DNA of 64,000 bases, taken from NCBI GenBank assembly GCA_030684575.1, contig JAUXVD010000008.1:868001-932000 (forward strand), in the 5' to 3' direction. Positions 29,592-61,765 of this stretch are shown here, piece by piece. This DNA comes from Nitrospirota bacterium. Lineage in GTDB: Bacteria > Nitrospirota > Nitrospiria > Nitrospirales > Nitrospiraceae. The notes beneath the pieces are model-generated. The model searched no databases and had not been told where the DNA came from. It saw only the letters and a program-made list of their open reading frames with translations. Numbering within the stretch: the stretch's first letter is position 1; every line of letters begins with the position of its first letter. A program made the position numbers and the translations under genes.

Positions 29592-29601
29592 CGAGCGCTG
29601 T

Positions 29602-36795: not shown

Positions 36796-37749
36796 ATGGC
36801 CGTGAGAATTGAATCGCTCCCCCAGAAACGCCTTATCGAGGCGGTTTCGCCATATCTGAAGGCTATAATTCCCCAGGCAAGTTTGGAAGGGCGTGCACTC
36901 TGTCGTTCACGTCGCCGCGGAACATTGGTGTCAACAATTCAGCTAGGACTTCAGCAAATCATTCGCTTCAAGAGGGAACGGTCTCAGGAGTCTACCGAGA
37001 GGCACTATTCTGATTCCTATGCCGACACCGGGGTAGAGGCCTTTGATGCTTGTCTGGCATCCACGGCTCGCTCAAACCCCTTCAAGCTAGGCAACGAAAG
37101 CTTATTGGTCTTACCTCCCAGTGGGCTTTACGCCGCCTATCTTGCAACTCTTTCGGATGTCGTCGGTCAGCTCAAGCCATCTTCGGTCTGTGAGGTAGGA
37201 TTCGGCTCTGGCAAGAACCTCATTTATCTGGCGCCGCGTTTCCCTGACATACCGTTCTGCGGGTACGAGCTGACCCATGAGGGAGTTGCTGTGGCCAAGA
37301 GTCTCCAGGAGAGACAAAGCCTTCCGCCGAATTTGGCAAAGCTTGTTGGCCAGAATGATGTGACGGCGATGGAGGCAGTTCGTCGGATTGATTTTCGTCA
37401 GGGCAACGCGAAGTGTTTATCGGCTCCGGACAAATCGTTCGATCTCACATTTACCGTGTTGGCACTTGAGCAAATGTGGCCAATTCTCCCTCAGGTGCTC
37501 GCAGAGATTCGAAGAGTCACTTGTCGATACGTCGTGTTTCTTGAAGCCTTCCGTGAAGCCAATGACTGGCTGGGCTACTTGAATCTTTTGGTCCGAAACT
37601 ACTTTCGGGCGGACCTGAGGATGATGCAAGCAGCCGGATTTGCTCCCATCGCGCTTTTTCGACAGCTGCCACTTAAGCACACACATGGTGTGGCAATGTT
37701 AGTTGCCGAAGTGGTGCCCGCCCCATCCCCAAATGCCAAAGTCCATTGA
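36796..37749 (+). CDS. SAM-dependent methyltransferase
   Basis: A 317-residue class I methyltransferase with a basic N-terminal extension. SSVCEVGFGSGKNLIYLAPRFPD is motif I, FCGYELTHEGVAVAKSLQ motif II, RQGNAKCLSAPDKSFDLTFTVLALEQMW motif III, and RRVTCRYVVFLEAF the post-strand-4 element. YSDSYADTGVEAFDACLAS before the domain may form a lid. It ends one base before the ABC exporter gene and forms a GT-MT pair with the gene upstream. Confidence 0.75.
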   Translation: MAVRIESLPQKRLIEAVSPYLKAIIPQASLEGRALCRSRRRGTLVSTIQLGLQQIIRFKRERSQESTERHYSDSYADTGVEAFDACLASTARSNPFKLGNESLLVLPPSGLYAAYLATLSDVVGQLKPSSVCEVGFGSGKNLIYLAPRFPDIPFCGYELTHEGVAVAKSLQERQSLPPNLAKLVGQNDVTAMEAVRRIDFRQGNAKCLSAPDKSFDLTFTVLALEQMWPILPQVLAEIRRVTCRYVVFLEAFREANDWLGYLNLLVRNYFRADLRMMQAAGFAPIALFRQLPLKHTHGVAMLVAEVVPAPSPNAKVH

Positions 37750-37750
37750 T

Positions 37751-39562
37751 ATGCCGAACGGACCTCATTTCCAGGGGAAGCTCCTTGAAATTCTTCCTCG
37801 GGGGCTGCGACTCCTGACAGAGCCTGAGCGCAGGAGGGCTATCCTGCTCAGTCTGCTCGTTTCCCTGACGGAAGTTGTGCAGGTTGTGGCCATGCTTCTG
37901 GTTTTGCCGGTTGTCGGAATTGTTGTGGAGCCTGATCTGTTGCAGAGTCATAGGGCCATGCAGCTCTTGCACGAAATCTTAGGTAGTCTGCCGGTAGAGC
38001 AATTCGTTTTTCTGCTTAGTGGTACTGCGCTCTTCTGTATAGCCGTTGGGCAGGCTGGGAATCTTTCCGTTCAGTCTGCGATCGAAGTTTTTGTATCCCG
38101 CATCCAGACGCGACTGGCACACGAGTTGTTAGGCGAAACGATCGCGGCTCCATACCCGTGGTTTCTTGAGAGAAATGCGGCCCAATTGGTTCGGCTGTTC
38201 CACAATGACATTGCCCTCTGGGGCCGAGATTGTATTGGGAATATGCTGCGAGTGCTGACCCATGGACTCACCATCCTTGCTGGGGTGGTCGTGGTGATGG
38301 CCACGGCTCCAGTAGGAGGCATTATCGCGCTTGCCATGGTCGCTGTGCTCGCGTATGGGATTCTATGGGTCATACGACCATCGATTATCAAGTGGACAAA
38401 TACAAAACGACAGGCAGCCGATCAGGCGATGATCATGGAAACCCAGATTCTGTCCGGTGTGAAAGATATCAAGGTCAATGGTGGAGAAGGATATTTCCTC
38501 CAATTATTTAAAGACTCTTATGGCCTAATGAGCCATGCCTCTGCTCGGGGGGTGATTCTAGGGCAGTTACCGACCTCCCTCTTGCTGCTTGTGGGGCAGT
38601 CCAGTCTCTTGCTCGTGGTGCTTATTCTCTGGAAGTCAGGCAGCCGGGGAGGGGAGATCGCCTCCCAGATGGCTCTCATCGTCTTGGTCACCTCACGTGT
38701 GGTGCCGGCAGTCACTCGACTTTCCGCGACGATGACCTCGCTACTCAATGCGATACCGTGGGTCGAGGGTATTCTTACCTTACGGCACAGCATTCTGGAA
38801 GCTTCTCGGACTGTGACACCTGTCGGTAGAGTGATGCCCGTTCCTCTAGCTTGGCAGGATATCCGCTTCGACAGTGTGAGTTTTAGTTACACCGGCACTG
38901 AACGACCGGTGCTGGCAGATTTGTCGATCGCTCTGGAACGCGGGCGATCCTATGGGTTGATCGGGGCATCGGGTGCGGGGAAAAGCACGTTCGTCGACCT
39001 CTTGCTGGGGTTACAGACGCCGATCAGGGGAGACATTCTGATCGATGGGCAGCCGCTCAGATCACTTGATACTCGAACCTGGCAGCGACGAATTGGTTAT
39101 GTGTCCCAGTCGCCCTATTTCACAGACGACACGATCATGGCAAATGTTGCCTTCGGGGTCACAGATGCCATGATTGATGAGCCTTGGGTTGAGGAATGTC
39201 TAAGGATGGCGGGTTTGCAAGACTTTGTTGCCGGGTTGCCGGAGAGAGTGCGGACCAGGCTGGGGGATCGTGCCGTGAGAATCTCCGGCGGGGAGCGGCA
39301 GCGGATCGCTATCGCACGCGCTCTGTACCGGCGGCCTGACATATTGCTGCTGGATGAAGCCACTGGCGCGCTAGATTCTTCGACTGAGCAGGTGATCATT
39401 CGTTCGTTGGAAGAACTTCGAGGCCGGATTACTATGGTCATTATCTCCCATAGAATGAGTGCCGTGTCGACCTGTGATCAGGTGTTGTTGCTCGATGCCG
39501 GTCGCTTAACCATGCACGGGACTTATTCCGACGTGTTGCGGCAACATCCGGCCAGCGCATGA
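37751..39562 (+). CDS. ABC half-exporter, lipid-linked glycan flippase type (MsbA/PglK-like)
   Basis: A 603-residue half-transporter: six predicted membrane helices in residues of about 30-340, then an ATPase domain with Walker A GASGAGKS (405-412), signature ISGGERQR (511-518), Walker B ILLLDEA (531-537) and the switch His in VIISHR. ATG 37751 follows the methyltransferase stop directly; a frame extension to 37703 runs back into that gene. Exporters of this shape flip lipid A-core (MsbA) or lipid-linked oligosaccharides (PglK, Wzk). No Wzx is visible in the window, so this is the best flippase candidate for the glycan made here. Confidence 0.85.
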   Translation: MPNGPHFQGKLLEILPRGLRLLTEPERRRAILLSLLVSLTEVVQVVAMLLVLPVVGIVVEPDLLQSHRAMQLLHEILGSLPVEQFVFLLSGTALFCIAVGQAGNLSVQSAIEVFVSRIQTRLAHELLGETIAAPYPWFLERNAAQLVRLFHNDIALWGRDCIGNMLRVLTHGLTILAGVVVVMATAPVGGIIALAMVAVLAYGILWVIRPSIIKWTNTKRQAADQAMIMETQILSGVKDIKVNGGEGYFLQLFKDSYGLMSHASARGVILGQLPTSLLLLVGQSSLLLVVLILWKSGSRGGEIASQMALIVLVTSRVVPAVTRLSATMTSLLNAIPWVEGILTLRHSILEASRTVTPVGRVMPVPLAWQDIRFDSVSFSYTGTERPVLADLSIALERGRSYGLIGASGAGKSTFVDLLLGLQTPIRGDILIDGQPLRSLDTRTWQRRIGYVSQSPYFTDDTIMANVAFGVTDAMIDEPWVEECLRMAGLQDFVAGLPERVRTRLGDRAVRISGGERQRIAIARALYRRPDILLLDEATGALDSSTEQVIIRSLEELRGRITMVIISHRMSAVSTCDQVLLLDAGRLTMHGTYSDVLRQHPASA

Positions 39563-45258: not shown

Positions 45259-46296
45259 ATGCTCGTTCGTGATTTGCTCAAGAAAATCTATCGCTACCTG
45301 AGGCCCCCTCAGGACCATTGGGCGCACTTTGTTTCGATTCTCGATCGCCCCACCCTAACCCATGATCCATCTCTTGATGAGGTCGGCAAACGGGCGCTGT
45401 TCAAACGAAACATTACGCTCGTGGAGCTCGAACCCCATGCCTATTGCAATCGAACCTGCTCATTTTGTCCCAATAGTACGATTGACCGTCTGACCGTGAA
45501 GACTATGCTGAATCGGTCGCTGTACGAGGGGGTCCTCGGTGATCTGCGATCTATCGACTACGATAAGGTGCTCCGTTTTGCGCGCTATTCGGAGCCGATG
45601 GCCGACGATCATATTTATGAGATGGTGGCGTTGGCACGACAGCATCTTCCCAAGGCCGTCATAGACATTGTGACGAATGGCGATTACCTCGATGCGGAAT
45701 CCTTAAATCGCCTACGGGAAATGGGACTCTCGGTGTTGCGCATCAGTGTATATATGCGAAAGGGTGTGGCGTGGAGTGCTGCAAATGCTGAGGGGGAGAT
45801 CAATCGGCTCGCCAAGCGAATCGAAATTATGCCGGTATGGGACCAGCCAACTGCCACCACAGTAGGAGCAGTGTTCCCTTACTCCGGCATGAAGGTTGTC
45901 GTGTATTCTCACAATTTTGACGAGACCGGCTACGATCGAGGACAACTGATTGAGAGCCTGGTCGATCATGCCTACGTGCGACGATCTCCCTGCTTTCTGG
46001 TGTTCTCGAATTTCACGGTGGATTTCAACGGCAAGATCATGCCTTGTTGCAATCTTCGTAGCGACCATCCCGACCACCAGGCGTTTGTGCTTGGAGATCT
46101 CTCAGACAGGCGGCAGTCCATATTTGATGTGTATGCCGACCAACGTTATACAGAATGGCGTTGTGGTCTGGCCACGGTCGGCGAGAAGCAGTCTCCTTGC
46201 AACACCTGCAAGCAAAAGACGCTTGAGGGACCAGCTTTGGACCAATTGAGGTTGGCAGTTGATGCCAAGCTGGACTCTCTTGGTGTACAAATTTAA
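45259..46296 (+). CDS. Radical SAM/SPASM protein of the glycan cluster
   Basis: A 345-residue radical SAM enzyme. The cluster motif YCNRTCSFC (C63, C67, C70) follows LVELEPHAYCN; IVTNGDYLDAESLNRLREMG and LRISVYMRKG are barrel elements. The C-terminal half has IMPCCNLRSD and SPCNTCK, a SPASM-like auxiliary cluster region. GGAAGG precedes the ATG. Similar proteins in LPS and capsule loci are thought to modify sugars or lipid carriers (for example epimerisation or C-methylation), but no role is proven. It heads the GT/MT run: the next ATG overlaps its TAA. Confidence 0.8.
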   Translation: MLVRDLLKKIYRYLRPPQDHWAHFVSILDRPTLTHDPSLDEVGKRALFKRNITLVELEPHAYCNRTCSFCPNSTIDRLTVKTMLNRSLYEGVLGDLRSIDYDKVLRFARYSEPMADDHIYEMVALARQHLPKAVIDIVTNGDYLDAESLNRLREMGLSVLRISVYMRKGVAWSAANAEGEINRLAKRIEIMPVWDQPTATTVGAVFPYSGMKVVVYSHNFDETGYDRGQLIESLVDHAYVRRSPCFLVFSNFTVDFNGKIMPCCNLRSDHPDHQAFVLGDLSDRRQSIFDVYADQRYTEWRCGLATVGEKQSPCNTCKQKTLEGPALDQLRLAVDAKLDSLGVQI

Positions 46297-47441
46297 TGGT
46301 CTCCTCCCGTGTTAGTTCACCCGCAGCTCACCTATTCCGCGTGCTGTTCATCCTGCCCGATGGCCGTGCTAAACGGTTACAGTTTGACCACGGTGCGTTT
46401 CCCGATGAATTTTTTTACGGATATTGCCAGTTGGCTCGCCGTGAAGGTTGGCAAGTAGACCTCTTGGCTCGTGGCTTTCATTCATCTCTGGGGTTCTATG
46501 CGCAAAAACTGATCCACTGGTTTACGCATTTAAGCCCAGACTTTAGTGATGCAGCGGGTCTGAACGTGCATCTGCTTGAGCGCAATGACGCCATTGTCAG
46601 TATGAGTGAGCCGGTCCTGTTCATGTTGGCACTTCGCCAACTGCAGCGAGCTGACGGGGCAAAGCTTGTGCTCATCTTGATGGGGGCGGAGAAACGTCTT
46701 GAGCGTAGTCGTGCCCGTTGGGCCACTCATCGTATTCTTCGCTGGCTACTGCACAGATTAGCCGCAATCATTGTGATCGGGGAAGGCGAACGCGACTACC
46801 TCATAACCCAGCAGTTGGCTAGCCCTGCACGTGTGCATCTGGTTCAGTTTGGCGTAGATACAAAATTCTGGGTTCCGGCAGGAAACGATAGTATTGGGGA
46901 CTCTGTATTGGCGATCGGCAATGATGATGGGCGCGACTATGATGTGCTTCTGCAGGCGATCGGCTCCCATCGTCTCCGACTTCACACAGTCCGTCGGGTT
47001 ACCGGTGCCGCGCTTCCTCCTAACGTGACTTTGACCAGAGGGGATTGGACCGGGCAAGCGTTGTCTGATCTCGACCTCCGCGCCCTGTACCAAGGTAGTC
47101 GCTTCGTTGTTACACCGCTGAAAGACTCTACGCAACCGCAGGGACAAAGCGTGACACTCCAGGCTATGGCGTGCGGGAAGGCGGTCATCCTCTCGCAAAC
47201 CAGGGGGCTCTGGAGCCGGTCGCTGATGCGGCATTTGGAGAATTGCTACTTGGTTCCGTCCGGAGATGTTCCATCGCTGCGTGCGGCGATTGACCGCCTT
47301 GCCGCGGACCCCGGTTTATGCGCACAAATTGGGGCGGAGGCTAGACGGAGTGTTGAACGGCATTTTTCCAGTGATTTAATGGGTGATCGGATCGGGGCAA
47401 TTCTGCAGGACGTCTGTGTACCCGTGAGGCAGGCATGCTGA
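46296..47441 (+). CDS. GT4-like glycosyltransferase (run position 1)
   Basis: A GT-B protein of 381 residues. FRVLFILPDGRAKRLQFDHG at the N terminus, IIVIGEGERDYLITQQL, VQFGVDTKFWVP (the GVD motif that precedes the C-terminal domain), and TPLKDSTQPQGQSVTLQAMACGKAV in the donor site, where QSVTLQAMACGK replaces the more usual ExGFxxxxLEAMACG. VDTKFW is typical of GT4. It overlaps the radical SAM gene by one base and the next methyltransferase by seven. Confidence 0.8.
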   Translation: MVSSRVSSPAAHLFRVLFILPDGRAKRLQFDHGAFPDEFFYGYCQLARREGWQVDLLARGFHSSLGFYAQKLIHWFTHLSPDFSDAAGLNVHLLERNDAIVSMSEPVLFMLALRQLQRADGAKLVLILMGAEKRLERSRARWATHRILRWLLHRLAAIIVIGEGERDYLITQQLASPARVHLVQFGVDTKFWVPAGNDSIGDSVLAIGNDDGRDYDVLLQAIGSHRLRLHTVRRVTGAALPPNVTLTRGDWTGQALSDLDLRALYQGSRFVVTPLKDSTQPQGQSVTLQAMACGKAVILSQTRGLWSRSLMRHLENCYLVPSGDVPSLRAAIDRLAADPGLCAQIGAEARRSVERHFSSDLMGDRIGAILQDVCVPVRQAC

Positions 47442-48259
47442 AGGAGTATGTCGCGGCTTCCTCTGCCTCTGCTCAAACTGCGGACGAGTTTGTTGCCTCA
47501 TTCTGGGATCAGCGGTGGCGGGATCTCAAAGATGGTCGGCGCCTGCAGAGGCTACGGTTGAGAGAAGAGTACCGCTTTCTGAAGAAAGTCATTCCTAATT
47601 TTGGCGATCGGCCATTGGACATTCTTGACTGCGGATGCGGGCTTGGAGAATGGACGCTGTTGTTTCATCTGGATGGGCACAGGGCTGTGGGTATCGACAT
47701 CGCCGGTGAGACCATTCGTCAGCTCCATGCCAAGCATGGCGATGCGTTTCGGTTCGGTGATTTCCGCAAGGTTGAGTGTCTCGACAAGTCCTATGATGTG
47801 GCAATTAATTGGGGCGGCATTGAACATTTCGAAGAAGGGCCGACGCCGGCTATTCTGGAGGCGAAACGGGTTTTGCGCCCGGGAGGCCTGTTTGTGGCGA
47901 CGACGCCCTGCCATAACTTCCGTCTCTTTCTGCTCGATGCGTTATTTAGTCGAGGCATAGGGCCGGCTTACCCGATCGAGGGACATCGGTTCTACCAGTA
48001 TCGCTTCAGCCGAACCGAGCTCGAGAGCTACTTTCGTGCCTGCGGATTCACGCATGTGCGCTCACACATCATTGGCGGTGCCCAAGGGGTACAGCGATGC
48101 CTGCAGCACGAGCTCGGCTGGCTGGGGAAGCACCTTCCGCGTATGGTTCGGGTGGGATTGGAACAGGTGGGTGGGCTGTTATTGCGCCCCTTCCTTGGCC
48201 ATATGGTTATTTGCAGCGGCCGTGTACCTGAGGTGAATCGTGCCCGCATTGGCGAGTAA
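47435..48259 (+). CDS. SAM-dependent methyltransferase (run position 2)
   Basis: 274 residues. LDILDCGCGLGEWTLLFHLDGH is motif I, AVGIDIAGETIRQLHAKHGD motif II, and YDVAINWGGIEHFEEGP with AKRVLRPGGLFVATTP the later blocks, as in UbiG-type enzymes. C-terminal hydrophobic stretch LLLRPFLGHMVIC may sit at the membrane. Overlaps with both neighbouring genes (7 and 20 bases) imply co-translation with the glycosyltransferases on each side. Confidence 0.82.
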   Translation: MLKEYVAASSASAQTADEFVASFWDQRWRDLKDGRRLQRLRLREEYRFLKKVIPNFGDRPLDILDCGCGLGEWTLLFHLDGHRAVGIDIAGETIRQLHAKHGDAFRFGDFRKVECLDKSYDVAINWGGIEHFEEGPTPAILEAKRVLRPGGLFVATTPCHNFRLFLLDALFSRGIGPAYPIEGHRFYQYRFSRTELESYFRACGFTHVRSHIIGGAQGVQRCLQHELGWLGKHLPRMVRVGLEQVGGLLLRPFLGHMVICSGRVPEVNRARIGE

Positions 48260-49295
48260 GACATTATCTGTCATGAGACGTTTGAGTGAAACGTTGGCTG
48301 CCATGCGATCCTATTGGCCTCAATCGCGTCGGCCTGCTGCTCGTATTGCTATCAATATGGCGCCGCGGAAGTCTCCCTATGGAGGCGGCAACCAATTTGT
48401 TGCGCAACTGACCCGCTGCCTGAGGTTTTTCGGATACGAGGTTGTATTCCATCTTGATCGGACTGTTGATTGCATCGTGTTGGTTGACGGACGGGCCGCG
48501 TTGACGACCTTTGGCATAGCGGAGATCGCCGCCTGGAAGAAGCGGTATCCATCGGTTGTCTGTATCCATCGGATTAACGAGTGTGACCAACGTAAAGGCA
48601 GCGATTTTATGGATGCACTGCTGGCGCAGGCCAATGAGGTCGCAGACTACTCGGTGTTCATTTCCCGTTGGCTGCGAGACTATCATGCCACGCGCTGGTT
48701 CGATATCGCCAAACCGCATACGGTGATTCATAACGGGGCGGACCCGGGAATATTCCATCCGCTCGGGAGCCATGCTCCATCAATCGATGATGTTTTTCGG
48801 CTTGTGACACACCATTGGTCTGACAACCCTATGAAGGGGTTTGATGTGTATGCACAGGTCGACGCTGCGATTGCTGACGGATATTTGCCTGATACGGAGC
48901 TCTGGGTGATCGGTCGCTGGCCTGCATCCATCCGTTGGCGGGCTGCGCGGCTTTTCCCACCGTTAACCGGTAGCCAATTGGCCGACCAGTTACGTCAGTG
49001 TCATGGTTATGTCACCGGTTCTCGCTGGGAGCCTGGCGGAATGCACTTTATTGAGGGAGCGCAATGCGGCTTGCCCGTGTTGTTCCACACTGATGGCGGT
49101 GGCATTGTTGAGGTTGCCGAACGTTTCGGAATCGGTTTTCGGGACGATCTTATGGGGGCGGTAAAAACCATGCGTTCGCGGTATCGTGATCTGCGCGGGG
49201 AGGTATTGGACCATGGCCCGTCCGGGGACCATATGTGCACTGCCTATCGGCAGTTGATCCAAACCCTTCTTGTCGCGGACGGAAGGATCGGATGA
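48240..49295 (+). CDS. GT4-like glycosyltransferase (run position 3)
   Basis: 351 residues. ARIAINMAPRKSPYGGGNQFVAQL has the glycine-rich acceptor loop, TVIHNGADPGIFHPLG the GAD hinge motif, and SRWEPGGMHFIEGAQCGLPVLFHTDGGG the donor-site block (EPGGMxxxEGAxCGLP). GTG 48240 is preferred because GAGGTG lies five bases before it; ATG 48273 is possible. ATGA overlap with the next methyltransferase. The substrate is unknown. Confidence 0.78.
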   Translation: MPALASKTLSVMRRLSETLAAMRSYWPQSRRPAARIAINMAPRKSPYGGGNQFVAQLTRCLRFFGYEVVFHLDRTVDCIVLVDGRAALTTFGIAEIAAWKKRYPSVVCIHRINECDQRKGSDFMDALLAQANEVADYSVFISRWLRDYHATRWFDIAKPHTVIHNGADPGIFHPLGSHAPSIDDVFRLVTHHWSDNPMKGFDVYAQVDAAIADGYLPDTELWVIGRWPASIRWRAARLFPPLTGSQLADQLRQCHGYVTGSRWEPGGMHFIEGAQCGLPVLFHTDGGGIVEVAERFGIGFRDDLMGAVKTMRSRYRDLRGEVLDHGPSGDHMCTAYRQLIQTLLVADGRIG

Positions 49296-50011
49296 CACTC
49301 TCGTTGTTGGAGTACTATCAATCGCTCGGGTTGTCGGCATCGCAATGGCATGTTGGGCCGGAGCACCCGTATCTTGAAGAATATGTGATTCGTCTGTTGC
49401 GTACCCTGCCAGCAGTCAGAGTATTGGAGATCGGATACCAGTCTGGCGGGTTTGCTGTTCCTGTTATTCTAGCGATGCAGGGGCGTTCTGGGTTCGATTA
49501 TCTCGGAGTTGATTCGTTACGTTATGCGAATGCGGTCCATGGTGGCATCATTGCTGACTACCTTAAGACACAAGGGGTTACATCGGGCTTTCAGTTTATT
49601 GAATCGGATGCGTCGAAGTTTCTTTCTCGAAAGCATTCCGGTCAGTTTGACCTCATTCTCATCGACCACTACAAACCGCTTTATCCCCGCGAGCTCCTGG
49701 CTGTTTTTGCAAGTGATCGTCTGGGTCCGCAGGGGGTTGTGTTGCTGCATGATATCTCCGGTCGAGCGCGTGGCGTGGCGGTGCTCTGTGAGGCCATTGC
49801 AAGTGCCTATGGATACACATGGGCGGTAGTGGAGGAGGTCCCAGAGGGTCTTGCCGTGTTACGAAGTCGGGGCTGGGACAGTAGGGAATATCACAGGTTC
49901 TCGAGGAAGATTCGACGAGGAGTTGTCAGGGTTTTGGTCGGTATCCAACGTCTTGTCGGTCTGGCTCGCGAAGTTCTGCGGAGCGCTAAGCGAAAGGTTA
50001 CGTCGGCTTGA
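49292..50011 (+). CDS. SAM-dependent methyltransferase, Methyltransf_24-like (run position 4)
   Basis: ATG 49292 overlaps the previous TGA and gives 239 residues; a frame extension to 49235 is inside the glycosyltransferase. VRVLEIGYQSGGFAVPVILAM is motif I, LGVDSLRYANAVHGGIIADYL follows, and FDLILIDHYKPLYPRELLAVF with VVLLHDISGRARGVAV gives the D-H pattern of the cephalosporin-hydroxylase/Methyltransf_24-like O-methyltransferases. The last 40 residues are basic and amphipathic. 52 bases separate it from the next gene. Confidence 0.75.
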   Translation: MTLSLLEYYQSLGLSASQWHVGPEHPYLEEYVIRLLRTLPAVRVLEIGYQSGGFAVPVILAMQGRSGFDYLGVDSLRYANAVHGGIIADYLKTQGVTSGFQFIESDASKFLSRKHSGQFDLILIDHYKPLYPRELLAVFASDRLGPQGVVLLHDISGRARGVAVLCEAIASAYGYTWAVVEEVPEGLAVLRSRGWDSREYHRFSRKIRRGVVRVLVGIQRLVGLAREVLRSAKRKVTSA

Positions 50012-50063
50012 GTAAGGTGGATTTGGGGGGAAGTGACTCGAGCCATTGTCCTTGTTGCACGCA

Positions 50064-51188
50064 ATGAGATTATCTCGCCTCATACCGGTTCTTTGGCATC
50101 GAAGCCTTCAGCCAATTCAAGCCGCCGTCGGTTTGCCGTATAGCAAACCATATTCCTTTCTTTCGATTCATTCAGACCTTTCAGGCTGGGTTCTGGAAGA
50201 AGAAGCTGTCGAGTTTCGTCGTATTGCTGAGCGTTTAGGCATTCGAGCGAGATGTAATTATGGTTTGGGTGTCAATGCGGGACAATGTATTCACTATACC
50301 TCACAATTTGTGCTTCGCGATCCGCGATACTTCAATACCCGTAACAGAATATCGGTAGACTACTTTCACGGGCTCCCGTCAAGTGCACCTATATTTGCGG
50401 AAGTGGTCGCTGCTTTTCGCCGTCATCATCAGGCGCTCACGCGTGTGCGGGTATCCCATTCCCGCATGGAGGAAGTTGTCTTAGCGGCGGGGGTTGAGCC
50501 TTCGAAAGTGCATCGCATCCCGATCGGCATCAATCTGTCTTATTTCTCAGTTTCAACGTCGGATCAACGGGTTGCAGCTCGTGACCAGTTGCGATTGCCT
50601 GGTTCGGCGGTAGTTGTCGGTTCCTTCCAAAAGGATGGGGTGGGATGGGGCGAAGGAATGGAACCAAAGCTCATCAAAGGACCTGACGTATTTCTCAAGG
50701 TGATCGAACGACTGAAATCCAAAGTTCCAGAGCTCCATGTGGTGCTCTCAGGTCCCTCACGGGGCTATATGAAGGCCGGCCTGGAAAAGCTTGGGGTGCC
50801 GTACCGTCATCTCCAACTTAAACAGTATGCGGATGTGGGTTTGCTGTATCGGGCGTTGGATCTTTACTTGATAACGTCACGCGACGAAGGCGGACCTAAG
50901 GCTATCCTGGAGTCGATGGCCAGCGGTGTGCCCCTGGTCACATCGCAAGTTGGTCAGGCGATTGATCTTGTCCGGCATGGCGAGAACGCTTGGATGGTTG
51001 AGGTGGATGACGTGGAGGGGCTGACACATTGGGCTGAGTACGTTATCGCCCACCGTGGATCGCCGCAGGTCTCGCGAGTGCTGGAGTTGGCGCGGCAGAC
51101 TGCTGCGTCTAACAGCTATGAGCAGCAAATCCCATTGTGGCGCAAGTTCATGACAGGCTTTCTTGCGGGACCTTTGAAAGACAGCTAA
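50064..51188 (+). CDS. GT4 glycosyltransferase (run position 5)
   Basis: 374 residues from ATG 50064; TTG 50046 is an alternative start. VSHSRMEEVVLAAGVEPSKVHRIPIGINLSYFS is the interdomain hinge, VVGSFQKDGVGWGEGMEPKLIKGPDVFLKVIERL the start of the C-terminal domain, and ITSRDEGGPKAILESMASGVPLVTSQ the donor site with the two glutamates of GT4. The early part, SFLSIHSDLSGWVLEEEAVEFRRIAER, is typical of GT4 proteins acting on O-antigens. Confidence 0.82.
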   Translation: MRLSRLIPVLWHRSLQPIQAAVGLPYSKPYSFLSIHSDLSGWVLEEEAVEFRRIAERLGIRARCNYGLGVNAGQCIHYTSQFVLRDPRYFNTRNRISVDYFHGLPSSAPIFAEVVAAFRRHHQALTRVRVSHSRMEEVVLAAGVEPSKVHRIPIGINLSYFSVSTSDQRVAARDQLRLPGSAVVVGSFQKDGVGWGEGMEPKLIKGPDVFLKVIERLKSKVPELHVVLSGPSRGYMKAGLEKLGVPYRHLQLKQYADVGLLYRALDLYLITSRDEGGPKAILESMASGVPLVTSQVGQAIDLVRHGENAWMVEVDDVEGLTHWAEYVIAHRGSPQVSRVLELARQTAASNSYEQQIPLWRKFMTGFLAGPLKDS

Positions 51189-51217
51189 ATGGTTTCTTGC
51201 AAGGGGCACTATTCGTG

Positions 51218-52087
51218 ATGTTTCGACAATGGCCTGAGATCTGTGGAGATGTTCCCTTATCCCTGGCAAAGCAGGGGCGATATCTTGCCCATGGGTTCTG
51301 CGAGATTGTTCAATCTATGGGGCAGGGGATTCCAGTCGATCCGGCATCTCTGGACCTTGTGCGGGGAGATATACAAGCTAAGATGAGCGAGGGTGCCTCG
51401 CCACTGCGCGTGTATACGTACGCTGTGGCTAGGCAGGTTTTGGCGGATGTCCACGTTGTACCTGGTCCCGTCTGTGATCTTGGTTGTGGTTCTGGAGGAC
51501 AGAATCGGTTGTTTGAAATAGCAGGTAGGGACTCGTTTTACGTCGGTGTCGATATCGCGCGGCACGCAGCCTGGACATCACAGATGAGTTCGGCGCACTC
51601 GTGCCAGTTTATTCAGATGGCAGCAGAAGATCTTGGGCTGGCGTCGGATAGCCTTGCATTTACGTTTTCTTCCAGCGCGTTGGAGCACGTGCCTGACATT
51701 CACCGGACGAGTAGGGAGTTAGCCAGAACGATGCGGCCTGGTGCACAGGGACTCCATATCGTCCCCGGCGTGTGGTCGTTGATGTTGTACCTCTTCCATG
51801 GCTATCGTCGGTTTTCTGCCGGTGGATTAGTTGATCTGTTTCAGCGCGCCGGTTTGCAGGTCGAACATATTTGGTCACTTGGCGGAATTCCCTCGTTCCT
51901 ACTTCATGCGCTTTGGATCACCGGGGTAGAAACGATTCTTGTACAGCGGGTGTTTCATCTGAAGATTCAGCTGCGGAAAGGCCGCCCGCTTCGCTTCTAT
52001 CGCTGGCTGCTGGCCTGGGCTCTCCGCCTGGACCCTTTCCTGCCCTTTGCCCCAGCGGGGTATGCCGTTCTGGTGCGTAAATTGTGA
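51218..52087 (+). CDS. SAM-dependent methyltransferase (run position 6)
   Basis: 289 residues from ATG 51218, with AAGGGG about ten bases upstream; a GTG at 51137 would overlap the preceding gene by 52 bases. VCDLGCGSGGQNRLFEIAGRD is motif I, FYVGVDIARHAAW motif II, and LAFTFSSSALEHVPD with RTMRPGAQGLHIVPG the later blocks. The C-terminal third is hydrophobic and aromatic, suggesting membrane association near a lipid-linked substrate. Confidence 0.78.
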   Translation: MFRQWPEICGDVPLSLAKQGRYLAHGFCEIVQSMGQGIPVDPASLDLVRGDIQAKMSEGASPLRVYTYAVARQVLADVHVVPGPVCDLGCGSGGQNRLFEIAGRDSFYVGVDIARHAAWTSQMSSAHSCQFIQMAAEDLGLASDSLAFTFSSSALEHVPDIHRTSRELARTMRPGAQGLHIVPGVWSLMLYLFHGYRRFSAGGLVDLFQRAGLQVEHIWSLGGIPSFLLHALWITGVETILVQRVFHLKIQLRKGRPLRFYRWLLAWALRLDPFLPFAPAGYAVLVRKL

Positions 52088-52098
52088 GCATAAGCTGA

Positions 52099-53244
52099 AT
52101 GTCGTGGATTTCGATTCTTAAGAGGGTGATTCCCCCGGCCGTTCGACGTCGCTTAGATTGGTTGCTGCGGCCACTCTGGGCCCTGCCGCGGTGCATTGTT
52201 ATTCTCCTGGGGGAGTGTCCTCGGGGGGGAAGGGCTCAGGTCTTTTACGGGCATGGGCGAATCCCCGACCCGCACGACCAGATCCATGGCGGGTTAGTCA
52301 AGTTCCAGCGCATGCAGGATGAGTTTCCTAACTCTCCGCGCCGATTCAACGTCCTGTATATGGTGAGCAGTCGCATGCCCTATGGGGGCGAGTATGTGGC
52401 TTGGTGTGCGAGAAAGAAAGGCATGCGGATAGTGTGGAACCAGAATGGTGTGGCCTATCCCAGCTGGTATGGCCCTGGATGGGAACAGATCAATGCTCCG
52501 ATGGCTCGCCTGCATGCGGATGCGGATTACGTGTTTTACCAAAGCCAGTTCTGCAAGCTTAGCGCGGATCGTTTCCTTGGTGAGCGCCGGGGGCCATGGG
52601 AGATTCTCTATAACTCGGTGGATACGAAATTGTTTGCACCGGCTGCGTCGGACCCAGACCCTGACCAGTTGGTCTTGCTACTGGGCGGCACCCAGTATCA
52701 ATACTACCGGCTTGATTGTGCACTCCGCGTATTGGCGTCCCTTATTCGGCACGGAATAAAGGCGCGGCTACTAGTTACCGGTCGATTGAGTTGGATGCTG
52801 AATGAAGAGGAGGCAGGTCGTCAGGCGGAGGAGCTCGTCAAGCGCCTTGGATTGCAAGGGCGAGTCCGTTTTCTAGGTCCGTACACCCAGGTGGATGCGC
52901 CGTCAATTTTCAGGCAAGCTCATATCTTGCTGCACACCAAGGTCAACGATCCGTGCCCGGGGTTGGTGGTGGAGGCCATGGCCTGTGGGCTTCCGGTCGT
53001 CTATTCGAGTAGCGGTGGGCTCCCAGAGCTTGTGGGAGATCAAGCTGGGGTCGGTGTGTCGGCTGAGTTGGATTGGAATCGGGATGTTCCTCCAGATTCC
53101 GAGAGTATGGCCAACGCAGTTGTGCATGTTGTGCGAAATCGGGATCGCTATGCTCAAGCAGCGCGCCGACGGGCGATGGAGCGATTCGACCTGCAGCCGT
53201 GGCTGGCCCGCCATCGCGAAGTATTTGCTACGGTCCTCAGATGA
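52099..53244 (+). CDS. GT4 glycosyltransferase (run position 7)
   Basis: 381 residues. A hydrophobic N-terminal segment (LLRPLWALPRCIVILLG) precedes FNVLYMVSSRMPYGGEYVAW with the acceptor loop. NSVDTKLFAPA is the hinge, LLLGGTQYQYYRLDCALRVLASL starts the second domain, and HTKVNDPCPGLVVEAMACGLPVVYSSSGGLPELVG is the donor site. ATG 52099 is 11 bases after the methyltransferase; the TGA overlaps the next ATG. Confidence 0.83.
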   Translation: MSWISILKRVIPPAVRRRLDWLLRPLWALPRCIVILLGECPRGGRAQVFYGHGRIPDPHDQIHGGLVKFQRMQDEFPNSPRRFNVLYMVSSRMPYGGEYVAWCARKKGMRIVWNQNGVAYPSWYGPGWEQINAPMARLHADADYVFYQSQFCKLSADRFLGERRGPWEILYNSVDTKLFAPAASDPDPDQLVLLLGGTQYQYYRLDCALRVLASLIRHGIKARLLVTGRLSWMLNEEEAGRQAEELVKRLGLQGRVRFLGPYTQVDAPSIFRQAHILLHTKVNDPCPGLVVEAMACGLPVVYSSSGGLPELVGDQAGVGVSAELDWNRDVPPDSESMANAVVHVVRNRDRYAQAARRRAMERFDLQPWLARHREVFATVLR

Positions 53245-53918
53245 AGAAAATCACTCGAATCGCCATGCGCATCTTGTTGATGCTTGACAATGTTGTGAGT
53301 AAATTGATCAACCGTCTGGCAATTCCGTATGACGGCGGGGTACACGTGAAACATCGCTTGATGCGATATCATGACTTTTTCGTCAACAGGATTACACCGG
53401 GCGAGCGGGTCTTGGATATTGGCTGCGGATATGGAGCCGTAGCCTACTCTCTTGCAACGAGGGCCGGAGCTCTTGTCACGGGGATCGATCTCAATGAGGT
53501 AAATGTTGCGAAGGCCAAGGGCCGGTTCCATCATCCCAATCTTACGTTTGTTCACGGCGACGCCAGGACGAACTTGCCGTCTGGTCCGTGGGATGTCCTT
53601 GTGCTCTCTAACATTCTCGAGCATATCGATCAGAGGGTCTCTTTTCTGAGGGAATTGCAACAGGGGTTGCGCCCGAATCGAATGCTCATTCGCGTGCCGA
53701 TGATCGATCGGGACTGGCGGGTTCCGCTTCGAGAAGAACTCGGAATGTTTCACTTTGGTGACGCAACGCATTTCACTGAGTACACAGCTGAAAGTTTCGA
53801 GAAAGAAGTGATTGTGGCTGGGCTCTCAATTCATCATGTGCAATACAATTGGGGAGAGATTTGGGCTGAAGTTGTACCATCGACATTTCCCGATGCCCTT
53901 AGCTCGAGGCCAATCTGA
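53241..53918 (+). CDS. SAM-dependent methyltransferase (run position 8)
   Basis: 225 residues from ATG 53241, which overlaps the upstream stop as ATGA. RVLDIGCGYGAVAYSLATRAGALVTGIDLNEVNVAKA covers motifs I and II, DVLVLSNILEHIDQRVSFL motif III, and LQQGLRPNRMLIRVPMIDRDW motif IV. HFGDATHFTEYTAESFEKEV near the end resembles methyltransferases of glycan loci. A long in-frame extension to 53073 lies within the glycosyltransferase and is not used. Confidence 0.82.
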   Translation: MKKITRIAMRILLMLDNVVSKLINRLAIPYDGGVHVKHRLMRYHDFFVNRITPGERVLDIGCGYGAVAYSLATRAGALVTGIDLNEVNVAKAKGRFHHPNLTFVHGDARTNLPSGPWDVLVLSNILEHIDQRVSFLRELQQGLRPNRMLIRVPMIDRDWRVPLREELGMFHFGDATHFTEYTAESFEKEVIVAGLSIHHVQYNWGEIWAEVVPSTFPDALSSRPI

Positions 53919-55009
53919 TGCCCGGTGTGACAGTTCTTATGCCTGTTTATAATGGTGAACGTTTCCTCCGTGAGGCGATCGAGAGTATTCTCCGGCAAAC
54001 GCATCGGGACTTTGAATTGCTCATCATCAATGATGGTTCGACGGATCGGTCTCGAGAGATCGTTCTGAGTTATGACGATCCGCGAATCACTTTCGCTGAG
54101 AATGCCAAGAACCTTGGACTTGCGTTGACTTTGAATGTCGGGCTTGGGTTGGCTACGTATGAATTAGTTGCCCGGCAGGATGCCGATGATATTTCTCTTC
54201 CAGAGCGGCTTGCCGTGCAGGTCCATTTTCTCGAGAAGAACCCTGACGTGGTGCTAGTGGGAACACAAGCGATGATTATCGATCAGCAAGGTTTTCGCAA
54301 GGGGCGAGTGCTGGACCGTGCCTGCACGCATGATAGTATCCGGTGGGACTTGCTATTCGATAACAGTTTTACGCATTCCTCAGTTATGTTCAGGCGCTCG
54401 ACGATCGTCCAATTGGAGGGGTACGACAGTGCTTTCCGCTATTGCCAAGATTATGCGCTCTGGACGCAGGTCGCGCGCCATCACCGCGTCGCCAACATAG
54501 ACCGATGCTTAGTGCAGTATCGTGTCCATCCGTTCGACCGCATGTCCGACAAGTTGAGAGATTTGATCGCGGACGAGAATCGTCTCATTATGCGCGGGTA
54601 CATCGCCGATATCCTGGGCAATGGTTCGGTGTCAGAATTGGAGCTGGATGCCATGGTGAACATGCGGCTCGCCTTTGAGCGCCGATGGATTCGATCATTT
54701 CTCATTCTCATTGCGCGCTTTATCGATGCATATCAATCAATGAGCCCTTCTTCGAGCTTTAGCTCGGACTTTAAGCGGACGGTTGCGCGCCGGTATGTGA
54801 GGGCAGCCTACAAGGCGTGGGCTTCACGCCCCTGGTATGTCTTGGCCGTACTTGCGCCAGCATTGGGGCGATATCCTGTGATGAGGGTGACCGCCCGTTG
54901 GTTTGCCAATTTGCTGTGGAGTAAGGCAGGTGATGTTTGTAGGTATCTTGTAGGGAAGCCCCGCGTGGCATGCGTCCCTAATTGCAGACCGGGTGCGGTT
55001 GAGCTTTGA
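53918..55009 (+). CDS. GT2 glycosyltransferase (run position 9)
   Basis: 363 residues. GVTVLMPVYNGERFLREAIESIL, INDGSTDRSREI and ARQDADDISLPERLA (metal site) are the GT-A signatures, and YDSAFRYCQDYALWTQVARHHR is the acceptor side. Two C-terminal amphipathic segments (FLILIARFIDAYQ and YVLAVLAPALGRYP) may bind the membrane. ATG shares one base with the previous stop. It closes the alternating run. Confidence 0.84.
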   Translation: MPGVTVLMPVYNGERFLREAIESILRQTHRDFELLIINDGSTDRSREIVLSYDDPRITFAENAKNLGLALTLNVGLGLATYELVARQDADDISLPERLAVQVHFLEKNPDVVLVGTQAMIIDQQGFRKGRVLDRACTHDSIRWDLLFDNSFTHSSVMFRRSTIVQLEGYDSAFRYCQDYALWTQVARHHRVANIDRCLVQYRVHPFDRMSDKLRDLIADENRLIMRGYIADILGNGSVSELELDAMVNMRLAFERRWIRSFLILIARFIDAYQSMSPSSSFSSDFKRTVARRYVRAAYKAWASRPWYVLAVLAPALGRYPVMRVTARWFANLLWSKAGDVCRYLVGKPRVACVPNCRPGAVEL

Positions 55010-55052: not shown

Positions 55053-56042
55053 ATGATGAAAAGAGCGCTGATTACGGGGATCACCGGCCAGGATGGATCG
55101 TACTTAGCCGAACTTCTGCTTGATAAGGGATATGAAGTCCATGGCATCGTAAGGCGAGTTGCCATTGAGGATCCCGTTCACCGTCTGTGGCGGATTGCCC
55201 ACATTAAAGATCGCCTTCATCTTCATCCGGCATCGCTGGAAAGCCTGCCAAGTCTCTATCGAGCACTTGAGGAGGTTCAGCCTCACGAATGTTATCATCT
55301 CGCTGCACAAAGCTATGTGGCCTATTCGTTTGAGGACGAATTTTCAACGCTTAATGCCAATATCAATGGGACACACTATCTCTTATCTGCGATTCGTGAC
55401 CGAGTCCCGAGCTGTCGATTTTACTTTGCCGCTTCTAGTGAAATGTTTGGAAAGGTTCAGCAAACTCCGCAATCTGAGGACACACCGTTTTATCCTCGTT
55501 CGGCATACGGGATTTCAAAAGTTGCAGGGTTCCATCTGACGAGAAATTATCGAGAGGCCTACGGTATCCGTGCCTCTTGTGGAATTCTTTATAATCATGA
55601 ATCTCCGAGGAGGGGATTTGAGTTCGTCACGCGAAAAATCACCTCACATGCGGCGAGAATAAAGCTTGGTCTCGCCAAGGAATTGCACCTTGGGAATTTG
55701 GATGCCAGGCGCGATTGGGGGCATGCTCGGGAGTACGTGCGGGCCATGTGGCTGATGCTTCAGAGAGACGAACCCTCGGATTATGTGATTGCAACAGGTC
55801 AACAGCATTCAGTAAGAGAATTTGCTGAAATGGCTTTTGCTTTGGTAGGCCTCGATTATAGGGACTGTGTGAAAGTAGATCCTCAATTTCTTAGGCCGGT
55901 TGATGTGGAAACGCTTCTTGGAAATCCTGCAAAGGCCAAAAAAGACTTGGGCTGGTCTTCTGAGTGCTCTTTCCAGGAATTGGTTCGTGAGATGGTAGAG
56001 GCAGACGTTAAGTTGGTTCAACGGGAAGGTACAGCAATGTAG
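55053..56042 (+). CDS. gmd: GDP-mannose 4,6-dehydratase
   Basis: Gmd makes GDP-4-keto-6-deoxy-D-mannose, the precursor of fucose, rhamnose (D), colitose and perosamine. The SDR start ALITGITGQDGSYLAELLLDKG, YHLAAQSYVAYSFEDEFSTLNANINGT, FAASSEMFGKVQQTPQSE (S129, E130) and YGISKVAGFHL (Y152, K156) are the Gmd pattern. GILYNHESPRRGFEFVTRKIT is family-specific. 329 residues is short but normal for some bacteria. Neither the reductase (rmd/fcl) nor per is visible in the window, so the next enzyme is encoded elsewhere or beyond 64000. Confidence 0.92.
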   Translation: MMKRALITGITGQDGSYLAELLLDKGYEVHGIVRRVAIEDPVHRLWRIAHIKDRLHLHPASLESLPSLYRALEEVQPHECYHLAAQSYVAYSFEDEFSTLNANINGTHYLLSAIRDRVPSCRFYFAASSEMFGKVQQTPQSEDTPFYPRSAYGISKVAGFHLTRNYREAYGIRASCGILYNHESPRRGFEFVTRKITSHAARIKLGLAKELHLGNLDARRDWGHAREYVRAMWLMLQRDEPSDYVIATGQQHSVREFAEMAFALVGLDYRDCVKVDPQFLRPVDVETLLGNPAKAKKDLGWSSECSFQELVREMVEADVKLVQREGTAM

Positions 56043-56152: not shown

Positions 56153-58078
56153 ATGTGTGGAATAGTAGGAATAATTGGGCCGCCTTCTAGTAATCCAAAA
56201 TCTGCGGTGATTGGGATGAACAAAGTTATCCGGTATCGTGGGCCTAACGATGCCGGAGTCTGGTGCGATGCTGTCTGTGGTGTGGCACTTGGGCATGTAA
56301 GGCTCGCTGTCTTAGATTTGTCACCTGAGGGACGTCAACCGATGGTGTCTTCCAGCGGACGCTATGTCCTTTCCTACAATGGCGAGGTTTATAACTTCGC
56401 TACTCTACGGTTTGAGCTGGAGTTAGCCGGCTCGAAGTTTCGCGGACGTTCGGACACGGAAGTCATGCTCGCCGCTTTCGAGGAGTGGGGCCTTGAGAAG
56501 TCCTTACGGCGATTCGACGGCATGTTTGCCTTCGCCCTCTGGGACCGCGTTGATCGGCAACTGACCTTGGCGCGCGACCGTTTGGGCGAGAAGCCGCTGT
56601 ATTACGGCTGGTGCGGTGAATCCTTCCTGTTTGGATCAGAACTCAAGGCCCTGTGTGCTCATCCATCGTGGCGCGGGGATATCAACCGGGAGGTGCTTGC
56701 CAGCTACATGCGATATGGCTATGTGCCATTACCCCATTCAATTTACCTTGGAATCTCTAAACTATTACCGGGGACGTGGTTCAGAATTTCCGCTGATGAT
56801 CCGCCCGGGCATATGCCCTTGCCCGTAACGTATTGGTCGGCGCGTGAAGTCGCAATGCAGGAGCCGCTTGCTGATCTTTCTGATGCATCGGCAGCGGATG
56901 CGCTCGATGCCCTGCTGCGCCAGGCAGTGGGCAGACAGATGATTTCCGATGTGCCCATCGGGGCGTTCCTGTCTGGAGGGATTGACTCGTCTACCGTCGT
57001 CGCCTTGATGCAGTGCCAGTCTCCACGTCCTGTCCGGACATTCTCTATCGGGTTCAGTGCGTCTGATTATGACGAGGCGCGCTACGCGAAGTTGGTCGCG
57101 GCGCATCTGGGTACGGATCACACGGAGCTGTATCTGTCTGCAACAGAAGCGTTGGACGTGATTCCGCGACTGCCGGAAATCTACGATGAGCCGTTCGGCG
57201 ATTCATCTCAAATCCCGACTCATCTTGTGGCCGCGCTCGCACGCAAGCATGTGACCGTCGCTCTTTCTGGCGATGGCGGAGACGAACTATTCGGTGGCTA
57301 TAACCGCTACTTTTGGGGACGATCGATCTGGAACCGCATCGGTCCGGTGCCACAAGGCATGAGGTCCGGAGCCAGCAGGCTGATGACGACCTTGAGCCCT
57401 GTGGCATGGGATCGTGTCGGCAAGTTACTCCCGAGGGGCCTGCGACAACCGACGTTGGGGGACCGTATCCACAAGCTGGCGAGCGTGATGGATGTCGATG
57501 GCCCGGACGAGCTATATCGTCGACTCGTGTCCCTGCACCGGGAACCAGGCTCGTTGATCGTCGGTGCCAATGAGTCGCCAATTTGGGCTGATGCAGAGGC
57601 TGCCGCCTTCACCCGAGGCGACTTCACCGAGCGGATGATGTTTCACGACCTTGTGGGGTACCTCACCGACGACATACTGACCAAGGTGGATAGGGCTGCC
57701 ATGGCAGTGAGCCTGGAAACCCGCGTGCCAATGTTAGACCATCACCTTGTCGAGTTTGCGTGGCGTCTGCCGTTATCTATGAAGATTCGCGATGGACAGG
57801 GTAAGTGGCTACTACGCCAAGTGCTTGACCGTTATGTGCCGCGCGAGTTGATCGATCGGCCCAAACAGGGCTTCGGAGTTCCACTCGATGCATGGCTGCG
57901 CGGACCCTTGCGGGAGTGGGCCGAAGAATTGCTGGATGAGCACCGCCTGCGTCGCGAGGGGTACTTGCATCCTGCACCCATTCGAGAAAAGTGGAACGAG
58001 CATCTTTCAGGTAGACGGAATTGGCAGTATTGGCTATGGAACGTTCTGATGTTTCAGGCTTGGCTCCCCGCAAAGTAA
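56153..58078 (+). CDS. asnB: Asparagine synthase-like glutamine amidotransferase (AsnB/WbpS/exosortase-type)
   Basis: 641 residues. MCGIVGIIG begins at the Ntn nucleophile Cys2; RGPNDAGVW and SYNGEVYNFATLR complete the glutaminase. The synthetase half has the PP-loop FLSGGIDSSTVVAL, then LSGDGGDELFGGYNRYFWG and KVDRAAMAVSLETRVPMLDHHLVEFA. Copies in polysaccharide loci amidate sugar carboxylates or amino acids attached to sugars instead of making free asparagine. In this place a uronic acid or nonulosonate carboxyl is a possible target (inference). A 110-bp spacer precedes it. Confidence 0.88.
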   Translation: MCGIVGIIGPPSSNPKSAVIGMNKVIRYRGPNDAGVWCDAVCGVALGHVRLAVLDLSPEGRQPMVSSSGRYVLSYNGEVYNFATLRFELELAGSKFRGRSDTEVMLAAFEEWGLEKSLRRFDGMFAFALWDRVDRQLTLARDRLGEKPLYYGWCGESFLFGSELKALCAHPSWRGDINREVLASYMRYGYVPLPHSIYLGISKLLPGTWFRISADDPPGHMPLPVTYWSAREVAMQEPLADLSDASAADALDALLRQAVGRQMISDVPIGAFLSGGIDSSTVVALMQCQSPRPVRTFSIGFSASDYDEARYAKLVAAHLGTDHTELYLSATEALDVIPRLPEIYDEPFGDSSQIPTHLVAALARKHVTVALSGDGGDELFGGYNRYFWGRSIWNRIGPVPQGMRSGASRLMTTLSPVAWDRVGKLLPRGLRQPTLGDRIHKLASVMDVDGPDELYRRLVSLHREPGSLIVGANESPIWADAEAAAFTRGDFTERMMFHDLVGYLTDDILTKVDRAAMAVSLETRVPMLDHHLVEFAWRLPLSMKIRDGQGKWLLRQVLDRYVPRELIDRPKQGFGVPLDAWLRGPLREWAEELLDEHRLRREGYLHPAPIREKWNEHLSGRRNWQYWLWNVLMFQAWLPAK

Positions 58079-58083
58079 TCGTC

Positions 58084-60589: not shown

Positions 60590-61738
60590 ATGTCACGCAC
60601 GACTCGTCTTTTATTTCTTGTTACAGAAGACTGGACCTTCTGGGAGATTCGTCGTGATCTCGCCCGCATCGCGCTCGATGCTGGGTACGAGGTGACGATT
60701 GCCACGCGCGTGACTGCCCATGCCGAGCGTATTCGACAAGAAGGCTTTTGCCTTGTCCCAATCAGAATGCTGAGGGAGAGTCGAAACCCGCTCAGGGAGT
60801 TGTTGACGTTTCTTGAATTGGTACGGATCTATCGCCGAGTCCGTCCGCAGATTGTCCAGCATGTAGCGATGAAGCCTGTGCTCTATGGCTCGTTCGCTGC
60901 GTGGGTGACTCGTATTCCCGCCGTGATCAATGTCTTTGGGGGGTTGGGCTACGCGTTTACCGATCGGCCACAGGAAACCTCCCTTCTTCGTTCCATCTTG
61001 CAGCGGGGACTCAGGTGGGCTATTGCACTGAGTCGATCCATCGTGATCGTGCAGAATCCTGACGATCGAGATATGTTGGTGCAGGAGAATGTTGTAACTT
61101 CGTCACAAGTTCGTCTGATAGTTGGGTCTGGCGTCGATGTTCAGCGATTTGTGCCGGTCGATCCCCCAGCCGGTGATCCCATTGTCATGCTGGTGGGGCG
61201 GATGTTGTGGGATAAGGGAGTCGGAGAGTTCGTCGACGCAGTGGTTAGGTTGAAACAGCAAGCCGTGCGGGCGCGCTTTGTGTTGGTCGGACGATGTGAT
61301 CAGGGGAATCCCACCGCGATTGCGGAGGCGCAGCTTTACCGATGGGCGCAGGATCACGGCATTGAATGGTGGGGGCATTGCGAGGATCTTCCAGATGTGA
61401 TCGGTCGTGCGACGTTGGTGGTCTTGCCGTCGTATCGCGAAGGCCTTCCCAAGGTATTATTGGAGGCGGCCGCATGCGGGAAAGCGGTCATCGCGACGGA
61501 TGTGCCAGGTTGTCGTGAGGTTGTTCAACATCAGAAAACTGGCCTGTTAGTCCCAGTGCGAGACCCTGTGGCGCTCGCGAACGCGATCGCGAGTCTTCTC
61601 ACCAACCACGAGCTACGAGCTGCCATGGGTGCCTCCGGGCGCGAATTCGTTGTGCGGGAGTTCTCGAATGAGAAAATCGGGCGACAGTTTCTTGATCTGT
61701 ATAAAGAATGTCTTGGCCTACAGGGGGCGCGTCAGTAA
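60590..61738 (+). CDS. GT4 glycosyltransferase, PglA/first-sugar type
   Basis: 382 residues. FLVTEDWTFWEIRRDLARIALDAGYEVTIATRV at the start, HVAMKPVLYGSFAAWVTRIPAVINVFGGLGYAF in the first domain, SGVDVQRFVP hinge, MLVGRMLWDKGVGEFVDAV and LPSYREGLPKVLLEAAACGKAVIATDVPGCREVV as the donor site. These blocks match GT4 enzymes that add the second sugar to a lipid-linked N-acetylhexosamine (PglA, WbpT and similar). It stands directly before the phosphoglycosyltransferase gene, agreeing with that role. Confidence 0.84.
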   Translation: MSRTTRLLFLVTEDWTFWEIRRDLARIALDAGYEVTIATRVTAHAERIRQEGFCLVPIRMLRESRNPLRELLTFLELVRIYRRVRPQIVQHVAMKPVLYGSFAAWVTRIPAVINVFGGLGYAFTDRPQETSLLRSILQRGLRWAIALSRSIVIVQNPDDRDMLVQENVVTSSQVRLIVGSGVDVQRFVPVDPPAGDPIVMLVGRMLWDKGVGEFVDAVVRLKQQAVRARFVLVGRCDQGNPTAIAEAQLYRWAQDHGIEWWGHCEDLPDVIGRATLVVLPSYREGLPKVLLEAAACGKAVIATDVPGCREVVQHQKTGLLVPVRDPVALANAIASLLTNHELRAAMGASGREFVVREFSNEKIGRQFLDLYKECLGLQGARQ

Positions 61739-61765
61739 TCCGGATGAAGAAATTTGTCTAATACA

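Follow-up and report, generated by a model that had tools for sequence, protein, structure and literature searches.

A 64,000-nucleotide stretch of a Nitrospirota genome (JAUXVD010000008.1, positions 868001–932000; genome size 3.79 Mb), referred to here as the window, contains nine consecutive genes in which glycosyltransferases (GTs) and methyltransferases (MTs) alternate. We named this array G1-M1-G2-M2-G3-M3-G4-M4-G5 (window positions 46296–55009), where G is a GT and M is an MT. With a probability of roughly 0.6, the array is a conserved backbone of GTs with dedicated MTs, each methylating the sugar that its partner adds, and forms the assembly core of a glycan of the lipopolysaccharide (LPS) or O-antigen type. 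The layout is best read as G1 / M1.G2 / M2 / G3.M3 / G4.M4 / G5. The gene types, the order of the GTs, the adjacency of M1, M3 and M4 to particular partners and the covariation of M4 and M1 with those partners are all directly observed. Each MT probably methylates the sugar that its partner has just added; that this residue is the acceptor, that the modification is O-methylation, and where and when it is made are points that we infer from sequence.

Gene types and packing of the array

An earlier note on this DNA had described the nine genes, their close packing and a preceding radical S-adenosylmethionine (SAM)/SPASM gene. All nine were recovered at their positions on the forward strand in the order that it gave, with Pfam support for every class except that of G2, and the radical SAM/SPASM gene was likewise borne out by its domains (Table 1). 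The gaps from G1 to G5 are, in order, −7, −20 (with the GTG start of G2), −4, 52, 29, 11, −4 and −1 bases, in agreement with the overlaps, short gaps and single 52-base gap that had been noted.

G2 scores just under the Pfam cut-off for GT4 domains, and the GT4 assignment that it had been given was settled by structure prediction. An AlphaFold model built from 18 homologues had a predicted local distance difference test (pLDDT) value of 90, and its best Foldseek matches in the PDB were the GT4-type GT-B enzymes SenB, PimA, BshA and MshA, with E-values down to 5e-13. G1, G2, G3 and G4 are thus of the (retaining) GT4 type by GT-B fold and sequence similarity, on the evidence of Pfam for G1, G3 and G4 and of the model for G2. 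The conserved glutamates of G2, E264 and E272, have the spacing E-x7-E. This motif is kept among the G3 orthologues, and in G4 an aspartate replaces its first glutamate. G1 and all its relatives shown have Q-A-M-x-C-G in place of the usual glutamate of the GT4 motif, a feature kept across phyla. Each variant (Q in G1, D in G4, E-x7-E in G2 and G3) stays conserved inside its own orthologue set.

M1, M3 and M4 are assigned to the class I SAM-dependent MTs by their Rossmann profile in Pfam and by the glycine-rich SAM motif I, which is intact and conserved in all three. M2 matched PF13578 with 31.6 bits, above the cut-off of 26.3; a PDB sequence search with M2 gave no match, and its single-sequence AlphaFold model was poor (pLDDT 40). 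The PDB neighbours of M4 include a D-glucose O-methyltransferase at 5e-9, a weak sequence nearness. The M proteins are predicted to be sugar O-methyltransferases.

Alternation in the window and in related loci

The stretch from the UpxY-type gene at 14825 to the end of the window has 43 genes, whose order was shuffled 200,000 times. An alternating run of nine was never obtained (0/200,000), the longest shuffled run being seven. Given a block of five GTs and four MTs, perfect alternation has a probability of 1/126. The alternation in the window is therefore confirmed as real. The M proteins are only 23–28% identical to each other and the GT-B proteins 22–28%, values that rule out recent tandem duplication, including that of a GT-MT pair, as the origin of the array; the earlier note had likewise set aside simple tandem duplication.

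The longest alternating run in ∼80 related loci was four; strict alternation is not conserved in homologous loci. A second glycan locus of the source genome (L156, G000:C15:20000-39900; three-digit G and L numbers are our labels for genomes and loci) has MTs among GTs and an AsnB-like gene, and its longest alternating run is three.

A conserved order of glycosyltransferases

Relatives were collected from genomes sampled from groups already known to contain them, many of these genomes being draft assemblies. Orthology was set by BLAST thresholds, loci were fetched around G2, G4 or MT matches, and adjacency was counted from tblastn-placed matches as direct neighbours on the same strand. One collection scan gave 24 loci with G2 relatives in other phyla, at 36–62% identity, and 14 of 15 tested genomes of G2 loci had a strong G4 match. 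G1 was found in 22 genomes, including the source genome. G4 matches occurred in 26 of 199 genomes in the order with a Rhodospirillales genome. Searches by phylum gave G4 matches in 12 of 241 genomes for Verrucomicrobiota (represented by a Chthoniobacteraceae genome), 4 of 345 for the phylum to which a Desulfobulbaceae genome belongs and 2 of 246 for that of the window, source genome included. No close G4 match was present in 24 genomes of the same genus, and searches of 246–296 genomes of the phylum returned a single further strong G4 (G185) and, for G2, distant relatives only. Because close relatives of G2, M2 and G4 are almost absent from the genus and phylum, and relatives of G2 and G4 are present in other phyla, the array genes look horizontally acquired. 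Vertical inheritance within the genus is unsupported, given the near-absence of close relatives in genus and phylum and identities of 40–62% in other phyla.

Among relatives, direct adjacency in the direction of the window was seen for G4>G5 in 20 genomes, for G3>G4 in 15, for G2>G3 in 9 and for G1>G2 in 5. Reversed orders were rare (G3>G2 and G3>G1, two genomes each). By sequence comparison, the order G1-G2-G3-G4-G5 is a conserved backbone that recurs in several phyla. Most backbone loci have no MT between the GTs. Since the same GTs stand in the same order with no intervening MT in many loci, these enzymes do not generally depend on methylation.

Some gaps hold other genes. In five Verrucomicrobia loci (L029, L030, L031, L032 and L033) a sulfotransferase, identified by Pfam in two loci and by profile matches in the others, lies before G4, the position of M3 in the window, as if sulfation took the place of methylation there. 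Other relatives have MBOAT acyltransferases in the gaps, a Methyltransf_24 protein after G2 (L027) or FkbM-type MTs near G2 (L017 and L021).

Partner-specific methyltransferases

Outside the window, M1 adjoined G2 in 8/13 cases (one genome being counted on two contigs), M3 adjoined G3 in 3/3 and M4 adjoined G4 in 13/18. Adjacency between an M and a non-partner G was seen in 4 of 95 cases outside the window, all of them M4-G5 (4/7), which reflects the order G4-M4-G5; every other combination gave zero. The Fisher p-value for this matrix is 8e-14, treating as independent genomes that are not so. The clearest case is L124, where one strand carries G2-M1-dehydratase-G3-M3-AsnB and the opposite strand G4-M4. 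M4 stands next to G4 in three phyla, and the order G4-M4-G5 is also found in three other genomes (G325, G327 and G343). M1 lies 5′ of G2 in the window and 3′ of G2 in relatives. G1 and G5 have no partner MT.

M1, M3 and M4 also tend to occur where G4 does. Across 80 genomes, including the source genome, strong M4 was present in 25/52 genomes with G4 and 1/28 without (Fisher, 3e-5), strong M1 in 15/52 and 0/28 (8e-4), and strong M3 in 12/52 and 0/28 (6e-3). Inside one order alone, the same test gave 2e-4 for M4, 5e-3 for M1 and 0.03 for M3. In G335, the sole genome with M4 and without G4, another GT-B protein fills the slot before M4 (L034).

Evolutionary distances were then compared between partners and non-partners. 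M4 distances correlated with those of G4 at r = 0.92 and with those of G2 at 0.65 in the same 17 genomes (partial correlations 0.86 and 0.14). M1 distances correlated with those of G2 at 0.63 and with those of G4 at 0.50 in 13 genomes (partial 0.45 and 0.10). For both MTs the partner correlation was the higher in every jackknife. Mapping M4 adjacency onto the G4 tree requires nine changes of state; the M4-G4 pairing has therefore been repeatedly altered by gain or loss.

The pairing of GTs with MTs that the earlier note had read from the window thus survives in altered form. Specific partnerships (M1-G2, M3-G3 and M4-G4) recur outside the phylum and are kept as adjacent genes in other genomes, and partners covary above non-partners for M4-G4 and M1-G2, where this is testable. 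The alternation itself is not kept, and M1 goes with G2 rather than with the preceding G1. Because of this, the array is not a uniform series of a GT followed by its MT. The assembly line that had been proposed finds partial support: M1, M3 and M4 each have one partner GT, but many homologous loci are free of MTs and M2 has no relatives there.

Proposed mechanism and alternative explanations

In the mechanism that we favour, G1 to G5 would work in the cytoplasm and assemble an oligosaccharide attached to a lipid carrier, and the MTs, using SAM, would place O-methyl groups, M1 on the sugar of G2, M3 on that of G3 and M4 on that of G4. M2 would probably act likewise, and the G2/G3 step is suggested by where its gene lies and by the four bases that it shares with G2. 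Linked genes would supply the 6-deoxyhexose and nonulosonic acid precursors, export the glycan and polymerise it. Strict alternation would then be how a compact operon reads when MT genes stand beside their partners and the partners are successive.

Several findings weigh against dedicated partners of this kind. All known M1-G2 and M3-G3 pairs outside the window belong to a single order, which leaves few independent events behind them, and the covariation analysis covers M4 and M1, M3-G3 having too few genomes. In four genomes (L143, L144, L145 and L150) relatives of M3 and M1 are direct neighbours and lie apart from G2 and G3. A GDP-mannose dehydratase gene lies directly 3′ of M1 in two genomes, so that a nucleotide sugar may instead be the substrate. 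None of the loci examined contains a relative of M2, for which 246 genomes of the phylum yielded a single weak match outside its own genome.

The M3-M1 neighbours and the dehydratase genes after M1 are also what would be expected if the MTs act on nucleotide sugars or on the finished chain, with adjacency reflecting joint inheritance of the whole set. We consider this very unlikely, as co-inheritance alone predicts similar adjacency to all GTs, contrary to the matrix. MTs might otherwise simply drop between GTs in glycan operons and lie beside them without any functional pairing. GT-MT neighbours are indeed mildly in excess in the relatives (77 against 63 ± 6 in shuffled orders), and the gaps are also occupied by sulfotransferases and other genes. 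Such a general excess is a weak explanation, however, and incidental alternation is already disfavoured and quite improbable given partner adjacency of 23/33 against 4/95 otherwise, together with the covariation.

A stricter scheme than the one that we favour would make each methyl group obligatory before the next GT can act, with methylation fixing the order of the sugars. The recurrence of G4-M4-G5 in other genomes would fit, and the interleaving in the window obeys the conserved GT order. However, the identical GT order occurs in loci with no intervening MT, M1 precedes its partner in the window and follows it in relatives, and the order of reactions cannot be read from gene order or sequence. 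We hold this scheme to be unlikely because the mycobacterial mannosyltransferase ManT elongates its substrate whatever the methylation state (PMC9883506). A still broader proposal, that GT-MT partners are portable two-gene units swapped between phyla, that each methylation licenses the next GT and that gene order spells out the glycan, seems to us a distinctly long shot.

Substrates have yet to be assigned to most GTs and sugar MTs of uncultured bacteria. If conserved adjacency and covariation suffice to identify partners, the target residue of an MT would become predictable and the prediction transferable across phyla. The locus also offers a test case of whether gene order in a glycan operon mirrors the sequence in which sugars are added and decorated.

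Genomic context of the array

Upstream of the array are genes for LpxB, an MsbA-type ABC protein, LpxK, a heptosyltransferase and core GTs. The long run of glycan genes begins with an UpxY/RfaH-like antiterminator gene (Table 1), after which come pseudaminic-acid-type genes (PseB, PseC-like, PseF-like, PseG and PseI/NeuB-like). A second NeuB, NeuC and a cytidylyltransferase are also encoded before the array. Downstream are a PglF-like dehydratase, ManC and a phosphomannomutase, and the locus has two Wzy_C proteins. Relatives of the GDP-mannose dehydratase adjoin G3 in six genomes. With lipid A and core genes beside nucleoside diphosphate-sugar, GT, flippase and Wzy-type genes, the locus has the gene content of Gram-negative LPS/O-antigen biosynthesis, which points to a product linked to LPS; the genes may instead serve glycosylation of flagellin or another protein.

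Table 1. Features of the array and of the surrounding glycan locus (window coordinates)
Feature	Position	Strand	Evidence
UpxY/RfaH-like antiterminator, head of long glycan gene run	14825..15331	+	NF033644, 114 bits, cut-off 100
MsbA/PglK-type ABC exporter, likely flippase	37703..39562	+	PF00005 and PF00664; MsbA/PglK models matched below cut-offs
Radical SAM/SPASM protein, precedes array	45259..46296	+	PF04055 and PF13186
G1, GT4-type (GT-B) GT	46296..47441	+	PF13692 3e-11
M1, class I SAM MT	47435..48259	+	PF13489 4e-15
G2, GT4-type GT	48240..49295	+	GTG start, later starts possible; AlphaFold/Foldseek GT-B fold
M2, Methyltransf_24-type MT	49292..50011	+	PF13578 3e-7
G3, GT4-type GT	50064..51188	+	PF00534 1e-18
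M3, class I SAM MT (Methyltransf_11)	51218..52087	+	PF08241 2e-12
G4, GT4-type GT, well-defined orthologue family	52099..53244	+	Mostly a single strong match per genome
M4, class I SAM MT (Methyltransf_11)	53241..53918	+	PF08241 4e-17
G5, GT2-family (GT-A) GT	53918..55009	+	PF00535 4e-30
GDP-mannose 4,6-dehydratase	55053..56042	+	TIGR01472, 399.5 bits, just below cut-off 415
AsnB-like amidotransferase of glycan loci	56153..58078	+	TIGR03108, 584 bits (under cut-off); TIGR01536, 483 bits; linked in relatives
GT4-type GT 3′ of array, linked to AsnB in relatives	60590..61738	+	PF13692 2e-35
WecA/TagO-type initiating sugar-phosphate transferase	61754..62836	+	PF00953 4e-36

Other parts of the locus had been mentioned in the earlier note as further cases of pairing. 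The MT-GT2 fusion at 15379 is real and the gene at 36796 does encode an MT; the supposed GT-B-like product of 35056–36678 has no Pfam match, with a relative in L134 at 38% identity. The product of 41857–43281 likewise has no Pfam match, and its relatives lie in similar glycan loci (30% identity in L038 and 39% in L148). Both proteins are possibly unrecognised transferases.

At 29581–33361, HisH- and HisF-like genes lie between those of two WbuX-type N-acetyl sugar amidotransferases, an arrangement that suggests an amidino-modified sugar. A UDP-sulfoquinovose-synthase-like protein is encoded at 40664–41821, adjoining the NeuB, NeuC and cytidylyltransferase genes; it matches NF041015 over the full length with 462 bits, short of the cut-off of 575. 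This set recurs in L130 (68% identity), with a relative in L099 (55%), and a surface glycan with sulfoquinovose is possible. A single 819-residue open reading frame at 58021–60480 combines LPG_synthase_TM (flippase-like) and Wzy_C domains, an unusual pairing that may couple flipping with polymerisation or ligation.

Comparison with known systems

The neighbourhood follows the same plan as O-antigen and exopolysaccharide clusters that have an AsnB-type amidotransferase (TIGR03108-like) and UpxY/RfaH control. In the open-access literature that we searched, no nine-gene GT/MT alternation was found described for such clusters or elsewhere, nor an alternating LPS locus or GT-MT partners shared across phyla.

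The PGL-tb sugar genes of Mycobacterium tuberculosis (Rv2954c-Rv2962c) comprise several GTs and O-methyltransferases, each MT being specific for one residue (PMC3594219). They resemble the array in that multiple GTs and multiple MTs with defined target residues share one locus. In contrast to one MT per residue, three of the four PGL-tb MTs modify the same terminal fucose sequentially, and the product is a phenolic lipid rather than LPS (PMC3594219). In the methylmannose polysaccharide system (MeT1, MmpH, pMeT3 and ManT), a mannosyltransferase clusters with its own sugar MTs. A model in which mannosylation alternates with methylation had been put forward for it, but later data showed mannosylation of short chains to be independent of methylation (PMC9883506). 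This system differs from the array in having a single GT and a homopolymer as product.

A proven GT-MT partnership is known from Chlorella virus PBCV-1 (A064R/A061L). It differs from the array in that the partners form one fused protein, the GTs are unrelated and one terminal residue is doubly methylated. In A064R, two GT domains are fused to an MT that methylates the sugar just added (PMC9614988).

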